Source: Halogeometricum pallidum JCM 14848 (lineage in GTDB: Archaea; Halobacteriota; Halobacteria; Halobacteriales; Haloferacaceae). Taken from it: a stretch of DNA of 64,000 nt. The stretch is from positions 1-64,000 of the forward strand of contig NZ_AOIV01000042.1 in assembly GCF_000337095.1 (NCBI RefSeq), written 5' to 3'. How positions within the stretch are numbered: position 1 is the first letter of the stretch; each line of letters starts with the position of its first letter. The notes beneath the pieces were generated by a model. It was not told where the DNA came from. It made no database searches and saw nothing but the letters and a program-made list of their open reading frames with translations. Of this stretch, positions 27,979 through 35,979 are shown piece by piece. A program made the position numbers and the translations under genes.

Positions 27979-27992
27979 AAGCCGGTGGAGGG
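27979..27992 (+). repeat. Left attachment core (14-bp direct repeat)
   Basis: The sequence AAGCCGGTGGAGGG is identical to the copy at the tRNA-Thr 3' end (35966-35979). Flanking bases differ on both sides, so the match is exactly 14 bp. It is the displaced tRNA 3' end expected after integration. Confidence 0.85.
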
Positions 27993-28044: not shown

Positions 28045-29292
28045 ATGGGAGTGAAGCCCAAACAAGAAGTCGACCGTCTCCGTGATCGGGTCACGACTTC
28101 CGACGAAATCTCGTCGGACGATCAGGAACGCCTGATCGCCTTTAGCGATCAGATGTACCTCTTGAAGTCTGAGTACGGGCTCCACCGGCACGTGAAGCTC
28201 CTCCGTCACTGCACTCGCATGGCCGAGGAGGTAGGTGGCCTTACGGACGCTCTGGAGAGTCGCAACGCTGCGGAGAACCTCGTGGGATGGATCAACCGAA
28301 ACTACGACAACGAGGAGACTAATCGCGACTACCGCGTTGCGCTCCGAATGTTCGCAAAGCGCGTCACGGAAGACGACGAGATTCCGCCGAGTATCGAGTG
28401 GGTGCCCGCCGACACGAGTCGCAACTACGATCCGAAGCCGTCCCCCGGCGAAATGCTCCGCTGGGAGGGAGATATCCTCCCCATGATCGACGCCACGATG
28501 AACGCCCGAGATGCCGCGTTCATCGCGGTTGCTTGGGACTCGGGTGCACGCAGTGGGGAGCTCCGAGAACTCCGTGTTGGAGACGTAACCGACCACAAGC
28601 ACGGACTCCAGATCACCGTCGACGGAAAGACGGGGCAGAGAACTATCACCCTCATCCCCAGCGTCCCCTACCTCCAGCGCTGGCTTCAGGACCATCCACG
28701 AAAAGGCGACTCGGGGGCTCCCCTGTGGTGCAAGCTCCAATCCGGTGAGGAGATGTCCTATCAGATGTTCCGGAAACTCCTCATTGAAGCCGCTGACAGA
28801 GCTGGCGTTACCAAACCGGTCACGATCACGAACTTCCGGAAGTCGTCGGCGTCCTTCCTCGCTAGCCAGAACGTGAATCAGGCCCGCATTGAGGATCACC
28901 ACGGATGGACTCGTGGGAGTAGCGTGGCTTCTCGCTACATTGCCATCTTCGGCGGAGAGAGTGACCGTGCACTCGCGCGTGCTCACGGTCTCGACGTTGA
29001 AGACGAAACTCCCGACCCCATCGCTCCGAACGAATGCCCCCGTTGCCAGCGGGAAACTCCCCGTCACGAGGAATTTTGCGTCTGGTGCGGACAGGCCCTC
29101 GAACCTGGTGCGGTCGAGACGGTCAAAGAGCGAGAGCGGGAGGTACGGGAAGCGGTGTTCCACCTGGTCGAGGAGGACCCCGGAATCCTCACAGAACGAG
29201 AGCGCATTAGTGACCTTATGACTCTCGCAGACGAATACCCCGGACTCTTCGACGATGCCGAGAGGTTTGTCGCCGCTCTGAATGACGGCTGA
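28045..29292 (+). CDS. int: Tyrosine integrase with C-terminal zinc ribbon
   Basis: The 415-aa recombinase has an N-terminal core-binding region (about 1-125) and a catalytic domain with Arg169 (SGARSGELREL), Lys195 (DGKTGQR), Arg265 (TNFRK), His286 (DHHGW) and Tyr298 (SRYIA). The usual HxxR histidine position is Thr262, a form I associate with haloarchaeal SNJ2-type integrases. A zinc ribbon (Cys331, 334, 345, 348) and a helical tail follow. It should integrate and excise the element at tRNA-Thr. It sits next to the left att core. The convergent 66-aa gene begins 2 bp after its stop. Confidence 0.92.
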   Translation: MGVKPKQEVDRLRDRVTTSDEISSDDQERLIAFSDQMYLLKSEYGLHRHVKLLRHCTRMAEEVGGLTDALESRNAAENLVGWINRNYDNEETNRDYRVALRMFAKRVTEDDEIPPSIEWVPADTSRNYDPKPSPGEMLRWEGDILPMIDATMNARDAAFIAVAWDSGARSGELRELRVGDVTDHKHGLQITVDGKTGQRTITLIPSVPYLQRWLQDHPRKGDSGAPLWCKLQSGEEMSYQMFRKLLIEAADRAGVTKPVTITNFRKSSASFLASQNVNQARIEDHHGWTRGSSVASRYIAIFGGESDRALARAHGLDVEDETPDPIAPNECPRCQRETPRHEEFCVWCGQALEPGAVETVKEREREVREAVFHLVEEDPGILTERERISDLMTLADEYPGLFDDAERFVAALNDG

Positions 29293-29294
29293 GC

Positions 29295-29495
29295 TCATAG
29301 ATCGAGCTTCCCCTCCAAGGAGTCGATTTCACGTTTTACCTCCTCGCGGTCGCGTTCGTCTCCGCCTCGGAGGAGCACGGCCAAGGCCAGCCCTCGGACC
29401 GTCTCATCCTCTCCATGTTTGAGTACGTACGCGAGCTCCTCTCGGTGATTTTCGACGTAGCTCCGTAGCTCACGAGGAACTCCGTCCTCAGCCAT
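29295..29495 (-). CDS. Small charged helical protein of the element
   Basis: The 66-aa protein (MAEDGVPRELRSYVENHREE...) is rich in Glu, Arg and Leu and predicted wholly helical. The pattern around VRGLALAVLLRGGDERDREEVKREI suggests a small helical bundle. It is tail-to-tail with the integrase, two bases apart. It could be an accessory factor, as SNJ2-type systems use small partner proteins, though those are co-transcribed with int while this one is on the opposite strand. No family recognised. Confidence 0.55.
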   Translation of the reverse strand: MAEDGVPRELRSYVENHREELAYVLKHGEDETVRGLALAVLLRGGDERDREEVKREIDSLEGKLDL

Positions 29496-29643
29496 TGGTC
29501 TGCTCCACTGTGCCCCTGATCTGTAGGTGGGTCGTATGCATCGGTTCGCGTTCTTTGATTTCGACGCGACAGGCCCGATGAAGCAGAGGTGTGAACTATC
29601 AAAACGACTAAATCGCAGGGAACAGTACTCCCTACCACTCAGG

Positions 29644-29667
29644 CGCAGGCAGTTCTCCCTGCTTGCG
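29644..29667 (+). repeat. Stem-loop, 9-bp stem
   Basis: CGCAGGCAG pairs with CTGCTTGCG across a six-base loop, with one G-T (G-U in RNA) pair. It lies 12 bp before a larger hairpin. Confidence 0.6.
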
Positions 29668-29679
29668 TCGGGTTTTCCA

Positions 29680-29728
29680 CCGCCGGTATGGAGCGTGGTA
29701 CGCTGGCACGTTCACCGCTCCCCGGCGG
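29680..29728 (+). repeat. Large bulged stem-loop
   Basis: CCGCCGG (29680-29686) pairs with CCGGCGG (29722-29728), and GGAGCG (29690-29695) with CGCTCC (29716-29721). A three-base TAT bulge sits on one side and a 20-base loop at the top. The 13 pairs are all Watson-Crick, which is unlikely by chance in a non-coding gap. Confidence 0.65.
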
Positions 29729-29833
29729 GCTGTCTCGTTGGTTAGAGTTCTCTACTCCTTACGTCGCCAAAAGAGACGCATGCTACAAGTAGATACCGGG
29801 AAAATCGACAGACAGCGGCGTGTTGGGTGTGAT

Positions 29834-30022
29834 TTTGTGCACACGAGAAAAATAGCAGACGGAGGTACGATCAGCGCTTTGGAGAGTTATTTTCTCTCCG
29901 CTGCTGGTCGAAATTGCACACGAGGTTTATACCAGAATGTCAATTCCTCCTTTCTTACGACTATTTTAGAGAGGAATCGACAGACTGCGTGGGGACAAAA
30001 GTTCCCTGCTCGTGTGCACAAA
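29834..30022. repeat. Three copies of a TGCACACGAG site
   Basis: TTTGTGCACACGAG at 29834-29847 has an exact inverted copy at 30009-30022, and a shorter direct copy TGCACACGAG at 29915-29924. The middle copy abuts GTTTATACC, a TATA-like sequence; the last overlaps the beginning of the wHTH frame. They may be iterons or operators for that wHTH protein. Confidence 0.6.
29881..29899. repeat. Small perfect hairpin
   Basis: GGAGAG and CTCTCC flank a seven-base T-rich loop, between the first two TGCACACGAG sites. It may act as a terminator or as part of an origin. Confidence 0.4.
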
Positions 30023-30053
30023 GCTATTCGCGCGATTGTCAGGGGTAGTGGCT

Positions 30054-30260
30054 GTGCCTTCTGAGTCCGACTTCGAGGAAGTCGTGCGGATACTTCGGAG
30101 TCAGGGTGGTAGCGCATGGCAACAATCTGTTGTCAGTCAGATTCCCTGGTCGGATACGAAGGTTAGTCGAGTGGTTTCAGATATGGACAGATCAGGCCAA
30201 CTCTACAAACTTCGACTTGGGAGGGAGAACCTGCTCAGCTTAGAGCGTATAGACCTGTAG
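30054..30260 (+). CDS. Small winged-helix DNA-binding protein (MarR-like)
   Basis: The 68-aa protein from GTG 30054 is a single wHTH: VVRILRSQGGSAWQQSVVSQIPWSDTKVSRVVSDM with a recognition helix around SDTKVSRVVS and a wing ending LGRENLLSL. It resembles the haloarchaeal DUF7343 wHTH type. An earlier GTG at 30012 is possible but lies in a repeat. A TATA-like CTATTTTAGA is at 29961-29970. It probably regulates genes of the element, perhaps through the nearby repeated sites. Confidence 0.7.
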   Translation: MPSESDFEEVVRILRSQGGSAWQQSVVSQIPWSDTKVSRVVSDMDRSGQLYKLRLGRENLLSLERIDL

Positions 30261-30473
30261 CTCACACCGGTTCGTCTTCTCCCTATAGATAATGAATCTA
30301 TAGATTGAGAGAACAGTGCGTGAGTTGCGATTAGGTGCCCCTGAGTGTGGCGGTCGCTGCATGCTCCATCTTGTACGGAAGGGAAAGCTATCGTACAGGA
30401 AAAAGAGGCGTATTTGCTATCGTAGAGTAATCGAAAATGGCTCGAAAGAGCTACGGTTCTCATCGACGCAAGC

Positions 30474-31436
30474 CTAATCCTCGGATTCGGCCTCATGTTG
30501 CCGCAGGAACTCCATCACCTCATCGTACGTGATGATTTTTCCACTGGCCGCTGGCTCCCTATACGCGTCAAATCCGAGGAGGTCTCTCCACGCCGCAGCC
30601 GGGTCAACATCTGGCGGATCCTCTGAGACGGTAATCGCGTGTTCAAGGATTGACCGGGCAGTGTTTGCAGGCCCTGCTCCATTGTATCCCCAGGTCAAGT
30701 CGTCCTCGGACGAAGGGGTATAAGCAACGTGTGGGATAGGCTCTCCGTCGAAGATCACTTCATTCACGGTGTACTCATGCCCGTCATCCGTCACCTCGGT
30801 GTGATGGTGTAGGACTCCTATGTAGGCCCCCATTTGATCGAGGAAGTCTACATGCGGCACGATATCGTAGCCCTGGGGACACTGTTTGGGCTCAATCTCC
30901 ATCTCCTCTATGAGGCTGTTTTCTCGCATGTACTGCTCACCACGATACGCGAGCCCCTTGATTTGGACCTGGTACTCCTCCTGAGCTCGAGTACACAGAT
31001 TATTGAAATGCCACTCATCAAGCCGACAGTAGGCATAATAGAACGGCGCGGCATCGCGGTCGTGGAAGCCCCTGATATCAAACTCTCCAGTGCTGGAGTC
31101 TTCCAACTCGGCAACCATATCGAGGAATATCTCAACTTGTTCCTCCTGCGGCGGTACGGGGTCCTTAGGATGCTCAAGACGATCAAGGAGGCGCATGATC
31201 CATCCGATCCCCGTGAGCTCGGCGCCGGAGGAGAGGCGGACCTCGCGACGGTCGTGTTTCGAATTGCCGGGTTGCTCGCGGCATGTTGGACAGTACGCCG
31301 GAACGGTATAGCCTGCGACCGAGATGTAGTCCCCGTACATGGCCCTATACTCGGTATATTCGACGGTTGAGGTGTAGTCGCGGTTGCACTCTTGGCACTG
31401 TGACTGGTATCGGTATGGTGTCTCTTTTCGAGTCAT
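30474..31436 (-). CDS. Zinc-finger protein with a DUF6166-like C-terminal domain
   Basis: The 320-aa protein has an N-terminal zinc-ribbon-like finger (Cys14, 17, 49, 52). A middle helical part is unrecognised. A C-terminal domain (about residues 220-290) contains YIGVLHHHTE and WGYNGAGPANTARSILEHA, which resembles the DUF6166 signature of phage and plasmid proteins. The ATG at 31436 is chosen because the longer frame crosses a palindrome and stop-poor leader. It follows the RHH gene on the same strand. Function unknown; its place suggests element maintenance or host take-over. Confidence 0.6.
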   Translation of the reverse strand: MTRKETPYRYQSQCQECNRDYTSTVEYTEYRAMYGDYISVAGYTVPAYCPTCREQPGNSKHDRREVRLSSGAELTGIGWIMRLLDRLEHPKDPVPPQEEQVEIFLDMVAELEDSSTGEFDIRGFHDRDAAPFYYAYCRLDEWHFNNLCTRAQEEYQVQIKGLAYRGEQYMRENSLIEEMEIEPKQCPQGYDIVPHVDFLDQMGAYIGVLHHHTEVTDDGHEYTVNEVIFDGEPIPHVAYTPSSEDDLTWGYNGAGPANTARSILEHAITVSEDPPDVDPAAAWRDLLGFDAYREPAASGKIITYDEVMEFLRQHEAESED

Positions 31437-31859: not shown

Positions 31860-31920
31860 AAGTACTGATGTATGCCCCCACCTTCGAAAGCGTTGCGCTC
31901 AGGGTACTCAAAGCGAGTTT

Positions 31921-31940
31921 GTTTATATAGTACCAGCCAA
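31921..31940 (-). promoter_or_regulatory. Strong TATA promoter for the RHH gene
   Basis: On the minus strand CTATATAAACAAAC is a near-ideal archaeal TATA box, about 65 bp before the ATG at 31859, implying a leader of about 40 nt. It is the clearest promoter in the element. Confidence 0.6.
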
Positions 31941-32076
31941 TCCGGGCAAAGCACTCTCGATTACTGTCTCTCCACTACCCGAATCTATGCACATCGGACC
32001 CGCCACTGCATACGGAAACGTGCATACATCGGGTCCACTGAATACATTGGCGTCTGACCCCGTGGGAAAGTGCGAG

Positions 32077-34031: not shown

Positions 34032-34069
34032 GGGTGTTTTGGATTCGTGCCCTTAGGCACACCTCTAAC

Positions 34070-34100
34070 AGAGAATCCGAGCCTTGCGGTCGGATTCTCT
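34070..34100. terminator. Perfect 11-bp hairpin between convergent genes
   Basis: AGAGAATCCGA (34070-34080) and TCGGATTCTCT (34090-34100) flank a nine-base loop, in the 198-bp gap between the convergent membrane-protein and rep genes. A second small palindrome, GTGCC/GGCAC, is at 34047-34060. Bidirectional terminator or protein-binding site are the likely roles. Confidence 0.5.
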
Positions 34101-34229
34101 CGACGGTGACTGACGAGTAGCGTCGGAACACCGAACTCAGCCCCAAACGTACTCACAAAACCAAGGAACACCCGCAGAAAATGCCGGTATTTGACCTACT
34201 CGGTAGTGTTGCCACTCAGCAGTCGTGCT

Positions 34230-35965: not shown

Positions 35966-35979
35966 AAGCCGGTGGAGGG
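35966..35979 (+). repeat. Right attachment core in the tRNA-Thr 3' end
   Basis: This AAGCCGGTGGAGGG copy includes the discriminator base, the acceptor 3' strand and part of the T stem of tRNA-Thr plus one flanking base. Because the core restores the tRNA 3' end, integration leaves the gene functional. Confidence 0.85.

Follow-up and report, generated by a model that had tools for sequence, protein, structure and literature searches.

A structured non-coding gap and a predicted Rep-Arvir origin in a tRNA-Thr integrative element of Halogeometricum pallidum

Introduction

What do two neighbouring stem-loops do in a non-coding stretch of haloarchaeal DNA? We address this question for a pair of hairpins, HP1 and HP2, in Halogeometricum pallidum JCM 14848. 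The DNA analysed, hereafter the window, is the 64,000-nucleotide stretch from position 1 to 64,000 of contig NZ_AOIV01000042.1, and all coordinates without a contig or locus name refer to it. An earlier note, made from the letters of the window, held that the second hairpin, with its two separate complementary blocks, is hard to explain by chance and proposed that the pair may form a replication origin, an antisense or regulatory RNA, or an anti-defence RNA.

Results

The hairpins lie in a tRNA-integrated tyrosine-recombinase element: the 3' end of a tRNA is repeated directly at both of its ends, and one end carries the integrase. The 14-bp attachment (att) repeat, AAGCCGGTGGAGGG, is the 3' end of tRNA-Thr(CGT) and is present twice, 7,987 bp apart, with the left copy at 27979-27992 and the right copy, at the 3' end of the tRNA, at 35966-35979. 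From left to right, the element encodes a tyrosine integrase (PF00589, E 1.9e-14; 28045-29292, + strand), a 66-aa ORF that lies tail to tail with it (o66; 29295-29495, - strand), a DUF7343 winged-helix-like protein of 82 aa that is a candidate autoregulator (E 8.5e-21; 30012-30260, + strand), DUF6166, DUF7386, two proteins of PHROG families of unknown function, a 294-aa protein and DUF7845, with the hairpin gap between o66 and the DUF7343 gene. With a cut-off of E 1e-40, 145 of the 392 genomes of the order have a match to the integrase, and with one of E 1e-4, 40 of the 392 have a match to o66; both counts include the genome studied here. When eight proteins, seven of them from the element, were submitted to PADLOC, the sole match was the DUF7845 protein (E 0.013). 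The halovirus Humcor1 has the same succession of attP, integrase and short opposite-strand ORF, and its integrase DNA is 69% identical over 173 bases to that of the element; unlike the element, it is a tailed virus.

The gap that holds the hairpins (29496-30011, 516 nt), flanked by o66 on the - strand and the DUF7343 gene on the + strand, is the longest non-coding gap of the element. HP1 (29642-29669, + strand) has an 11-pair stem, in which 29642-29652 pairs with 29659-29669 around the 6-nt loop TTCTCC, and includes two G-T wobbles, at 29643/29668 and 29648/29663. HP2 (29680-29728, + strand) has an outer stem of seven pairs (29680-29686 with 29722-29728), a 3-nt TAT bulge and an inner stem of six pairs (29690-29695 with 29716-29721). 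The two stem-loops reported earlier are thus real and had been placed to within a few bases, the 9-bp stem given at 29644-29667 being the core of HP1.

Both hairpins fold more stably than shuffled sequence. None of 200 shuffles folded as well as HP1 (z -4.05) and two of 200 as well as HP2 (z -2.69), and for the 116-nt stretch with both, folded as + strand RNA, none of 200 dinucleotide shuffles was as good (z -3.05). With DNA parameters the same stretch gave z -2.76 on each strand, with one of 200 shuffles as good in each case. All 11 pairs of HP1 are kept on the + strand only, as the two wobbles become A-C mismatches on the - strand. This does not settle the strand, given that the whole gap beats its shuffles on both strands, with the lower z on the - strand (-4.87; + strand -3.64, 0 of 100 shuffles as good). 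Three coding stretches of the element gave + strand z of -1.24, +0.71 and -0.02, two of its other short gaps -3.31 (30261-30473) and +0.83 (31860-32076), and the gap with the predicted origin described below -2.99.

One explanation of such folds is that HP1 and HP2 have no function of their own and are chance structure in a freely drifting non-coding gap. Of whole-gap shuffles, 21% equalled the longest stem of the gap (11 pairs, wobbles included) and 2% its best 34-nt fold; none of 300 equalled its best 100-nt fold, which argues against chance. In a scan of the whole window in 1,598 stretches, the HP1/HP2 stretch (at 29641) ranked 26th, and since 25 others fold better relative to their shuffles, a hairpin pair of this kind is to be expected from a 64-kb search. 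The hairpins are therefore real and locally unusual, yet not unusual for a search of this size; the earlier phrase "hard to explain by chance" stands for the immediate surroundings and was too strong for the window.

Two further hairpins share the gap: HP3 (29868-29910), read from the fold, and HP4 (29933-29987), with 17-nt arms that are 82% complementary. In two coarse scans the HP3/HP4 stretches had z below that of HP1/HP2 (-5.11 for 29923-30012 and -6.65 for 29859-29958), and in the 1,598-stretch scan they scored slightly higher, that is, weaker.

We considered whether a coding frame crosses HP1 and HP2, and rejected it. Two open frames lie over the hairpins, one of 72 and one of 133 aa. 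Their second-position GC, 0.51 and 0.53 respectively, is higher than the 0.32-0.45 of the genes of the element, and neither has a Pfam match above cut-off; the 72-aa frame had no match in the plasmid collection and the 133-aa frame none among the related loci compared. A 100-aa frame beside the hairpins (29336-29638) is partly matched by the sister element of genome G420 (E 2.5e-5), in the stretch where the frame overlaps o66. By second-position GC, Pfam and the two collections, then, these frames show no sign of coding, in keeping with the earlier assignment of the region as non-coding.

The right part of the gap carries what appears to be the control region of the DUF7343 gene. A perfect TATA box, TTTATA (29926-29931, + strand), is its candidate promoter and is flanked by three GTGCACACGAG boxes, at 29837-29847 (+ strand), at 29915-29924 (+ strand, 10 of 11 bases), directly before the TATA box, and at 30009-30019 (- strand). 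Both exact copies of the 11-mer in this genome are the ones found here, and the boxes look like a candidate operator for the DUF7343 protein. Two - strand sequences, TATAAA at 29931 and TTGATA at 29602, each one mismatch from the consensus used, could start transcripts towards o66, the first running over the hairpins and the second omitting them. Ahead of HP1 on the + strand, a reading of the gap sequence found no good TATA box. The gap also holds a repeat, AATCGACAGACWGCG, at 29803-29817 and 29975-29989, which had 24 matches in 146 genomes of the order, three of them in this genome, against none for the reversed word as a rough control. We set it aside as a clue to function, the contexts read having no longer consensus in common.

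Searches for relatives of HP1 and HP2 gave no convincing homologue in the genomes, plasmids, phages and related loci compared. Rfam 15 had no match at gathering score in the gap, nor any at E up to 5 in 29290-30480. When the 391 other genomes of the order were searched with positions 29500-30020, nine had a match, and none of the matches went beyond short runs of 20-33 bases (E 0.01 or better), which fits a freely drifting gap without function; six of the ten places fall on the word ATCGAC[AC]GAC. No match covered the gap in the plasmid collection, the phage collection or the related loci compared. Among DUF7343 relatives, of which 80 loci were kept out of 156, the sole match over HP1/HP2 was at one locus, L140 (62% over 105 bases, E 0.007). 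We take it as chance, because a 310-aa open frame encloses it and the same settings gave 337 to 2,328 matches for seven other stretches taken from the window. None of the 80 loci encodes a second protein of the element (E 1e-3), the DUF7343 and 225-aa proteins had no relative in the viral contigs searched, and DUF7343 had none in the phage collection.

These searches also bear on the proposal of an RNA that acts in trans, as an antisense or an anti-defence RNA. Beyond the fold itself we found nothing in its favour; apart from the query's match to itself, every listed match to the hairpins in the genome studied here spans 25 bases or fewer, and the missing Rfam match and + strand promoter count against it as well. 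We regard such an RNA as highly unlikely, and none of the analyses lent support to the anti-defence role put forward earlier.

The element encodes a replication initiator, and this gives the origin hypothesis a concrete test. The DUF7845 protein (PF25227; 34230-35897, - strand) scores 397.2 bits against a Pfam cut-off of 27 (E 8e-119). A 2026 paper equates DUF7845 with Rep-Arvir, the protein that initiates rolling-circle replication in the archaeal virus SNJ2, and places the SNJ2 origin downstream of rep, as a conserved hairpin preceded by an inverted repeat (PMC13107129). In the full-text literature, as far as our searches covered it, DUF7845 and Rep-Arvir are little treated, the type having been characterised only in 2026. 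Among the family's 167 genomes, 29, this one included, have a match to the Rep with a cut-off of E 1e-80.

For comparison we took the DNA downstream of rep from ten reference viruses and plasmids and set it against that of the element. On the - strand of the element, a conserved motif, GAGTGGCAACACT, lies just past the rep stop (34205-34217), followed by an inverted repeat with 11-bp arms (34070-34100), a candidate Rep binding site, and, adjoining it, a nick-site hairpin, GTGCCTAAGGGCAC (34047-34060), 170 nt past the stop. The nick hairpin, or its GTGGC/GCCAC form, is present in all ten references, 171-185 nt past the rep stop. The GTGGC/GCCAC form, in five of the ten, amounts to a natural double change in the stem; in SNJ2, one of these five, the last pair is unmatched. 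The 10-mer GAGTGGCAAC of the first motif is common to five references at that place, with variants in the others. The element thus has in common with SNJ2 and betapleolipovirus replicons the Rep family (DUF7845, PF25227), the motif past the rep stop, the inverted repeat and the nick hairpin GTG[GC]CTAAGG[GC]CAC at +170 to +183 nt (PMC13107129); of its other proteins, only DUF7386 was matched, in two of the ten records. From the distance of the nick hairpin, the inverted repeat and the motif after the stop, 34047-34217 appears to be the Rep-Arvir origin of the element. A second copy of the nick motif, GTGGCTAAGGCCA, lies on another contig of the same genome (C34, 33197-33209) and possibly belongs to a further replicon or provirus.

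HP1 and HP2 have neither the place nor the sequence of an SNJ2-type origin. They lie about 4.5 kb from the rep stop, against about 210 nt for the origin, and are without the nick motif, GTG[GC]CTAAGG[GC]CA, whose single copy in the window is at 34048-34060 on the - strand. In favour of a leading-strand origin, the element encodes a Rep and its longest non-coding gap holds the two hairpins in tandem. Given that matching origin parts are found 4.3 kb away, at 34047-34100, with the nick hairpin 170 nt past the rep stop where the ten references have it at 171-185 nt, we do not take the hairpins for the Rep-Arvir origin. The replication origin proposed earlier is thus unsupported for the leading strand, and we consider it the least probable of the readings, with very little chance of being correct.

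The closest whole element examined, in genome G420, uses the same tRNA-Thr with a 13-base repeat and is 67%, 77% and 68% identical to the present element in integrase, o66 and Rep, respectively. Its gap is also full of hairpins, which cannot be aligned with the gap studied here, and the HP1 and HP2 stems are not kept. A leuA-Halobacteria cis-regulatory RNA (RF03001) was seen in the stretch of the same genome examined (L285:3399-3451). Three further elements beside tRNA-Thr (L264, L262 and L263) and that of G420 resemble the present one in the integrase family, the DUF7845 Rep, the att repeats (checked in three of the four) and a structured gap near the integrase; they differ from it in cargo, and their gap sequences have no match to HP1/HP2. 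As to cargo in stretches with this integrase family, tests of seven proteins showed that L262 carries a type I restriction system, L213 a DrmMI/type IIG-like protein and L218 BrxC.

Gap structure was found in all five Rep-Arvir elements folded. On the + strand, z was -3.64 in the present element, -4.2 in G420, -2.2 in L264, -2.54 in L262 and -4.05 in L263 (100 shuffles each, at most two of 100 as good); on the - strand (50 shuffles each) it was -4.87, -4.37, -0.86, -4.09 and -3.54, in the same order. The gap limits were set by eye, with that of L262 holding a mechanical 114-aa ORF and that of L263 placed by analogy. The stretch after the gap, in two of the five, gave z of -0.07 and +0.12. A structured gap therefore holds for these five elements, on at least one strand.

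In the wider family we found no such rule. Where a relative of o66 is present (20 loci), structure in the 450 nt adjoining o66 did not exceed that in the following 450 nt (means -1.84 and -1.78; p 0.42). In 26 o66 loci, windows with z below -3 were found in 16 of 286 cases near o66 and in 9 of 364 elsewhere (p 0.03, a comparison chosen after looking), and in 45 loci without an o66 match in 17 of 489 against 8 of 621 (p 0.01). We rejected an excess linked to o66, given the equal excess in loci without it and the null result of the paired 20-locus test. Two loci whose o66 match is far from the integrase (L018 and L019) were left out of the o66 comparisons, as were near-duplicates in the 20-locus sets. 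Nine proteins encoded first after the gap in related loci have no Pfam family in common.

The absence of the HP1 and HP2 stems from the G420 sister, like the short matches and the rank of 26th, is consistent with chance structure; the excess of + strand pairing in all five Rep-Arvir elements (z -2.2 to -4.2) speaks against it. We regard a hairpin pair without function as a serious possibility, although a somewhat doubtful one.

Signs of compensatory change were found in related integrase loci. Seven loci (L058, L059, L063, L064, L070, L072 and L075, four of them nearly identical) have in common a hairpin beyond the integrase and o66, in which 99% of cells are paired and five of 17 pairs changed on both sides. 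The 14 doubly changed cells compare with a shuffled mean of 5.9, while two of the five covariation measures were within the shuffles: 99 of 500 shuffles were as high in the number of pairs changed on both sides, and 184 of 500 in further pair types. The hairpin is crossed by an open frame; the dN/dS of this frame is 0.64, 1.1 and 1.0 between groups, and 0.39 and 1.75 within groups, and as the values between groups are near 1 the frame is probably not coding. In another pair of related loci, a stem was also kept through double changes. An Rfam scan of L058, L063 and L064 gave one weak match below cut-off, in L064, to an animal microRNA family and outside the hairpin.

HP1 and HP2 could not be linked to this family. 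The covariance model of the seven loci (R1) recovers its own seven members in a set of 80 loci, and in 243 genomes it found five of the seven plus three weak matches (E 0.001, 0.009 and 0.056); against the present element its best E was 0.91, away from HP1/HP2. We tried HP2 as a member by the pattern AGC-N-TGGT-R-N-GCT and rejected it, the pattern being post hoc and also matching L021, and R1 missing the window. In two of the seven covarying loci, 16-kb stretches (L213 and L216) have no DUF7845 match, so the hairpins of such loci need not depend on Rep-Arvir.

Discussion

We suspect that HP1 and HP2 belong to a structured non-coding segment that controls the Rep-Arvir integrative element in cis, and are not its leading-strand origin. 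We put this reading forward tentatively, as a possible one. In its favour we count the site in the longest gap, the divergent flanking genes, the gap structure in five elements and the covarying stems of related loci; against it we count the lack of a homologue, the sister without the stems, the miss of model R1, the null 20-locus test and the - strand z of -0.86 in L264. In this scenario, the segment would act on its divergent neighbours, o66 to the left and DUF7343 to the right. It would most likely be a structured leader or a short transcript, probably RNA, whose folding may tune expression of the integration module. The regulatory RNA put forward earlier is possible for HP1 and HP2. A leftward - strand transcript from the TATAAA at 29931 could cross the hairpins on its way to o66. 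The sequence of the gap would turn over fast, so that related elements may keep a structured gap and not the HP1 and HP2 stems. A control role is better supported on the DUF7343 side, with its predicted TATA box and GTGCACACGAG boxes, than for HP1 and HP2 themselves.

The main functional rival to control in cis is a lagging-strand, or single-strand, origin, in which the displaced strand of rolling-circle replication would fold at HP1/HP2 and prime synthesis of the second strand. Lagging-strand origins take the form of long non-coding hairpins and vary from plasmid to plasmid, which agrees with what we found here, and they usually sit shortly before the nick site, which does not. The element encodes a Rep-Arvir initiator with its origin motifs, and both DNA strands of the HP1/HP2 stretch fold equally well (z -2.76 each), as this explanation would have it. 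By a hand count from the coordinates, however, about 55% of the circle separates the nick from the hairpins along the rep-sense strand, and two of the covarying loci (L213 and L216) are without a DUF7845 match. The passages of the SNJ2 paper that were searched name no lagging-strand origin (PMC13107129). Taken together, we judge this explanation to be unlikely.

With control in cis as the preferred reading, it is tempting to generalize. Haloarchaeal integration modules, made up of an integrase and a short ORF tail to tail with it, may carry a class of RNAs or DNA elements that are structured, diverge quickly and control integration and excision. Compensatory change would preserve their stems inside each lineage, while from one lineage to another the stems would be replaced, and HP1/HP2 would be the version of this element. 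This broader idea is speculative, and we would give it only a small chance of being right as it stands.

The element is an integrative replicon of a known kind, and a new member of it, with a structured gap, a predicted origin and likely operator boxes. Limited searches of the full-text literature found no description of this element, or of structured gaps beside haloarchaeal integrases. An anonymous hairpin pair has thereby become part of a placed mobile element with a recently characterised type of Rep, a predicted origin and likely operator boxes.

There is a wider interest in how such elements leave their host chromosome. Characterised archaeal integrases are described, in the part of a review that treats them, as working in both directions without a directionality factor (PMC8371274). 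Restriction and other defence genes are found in related elements, so the way excision and replication are controlled matters for the spread of defence genes among haloarchaea, and structured gaps beside such integrases would be a testable lead for how excision is controlled.
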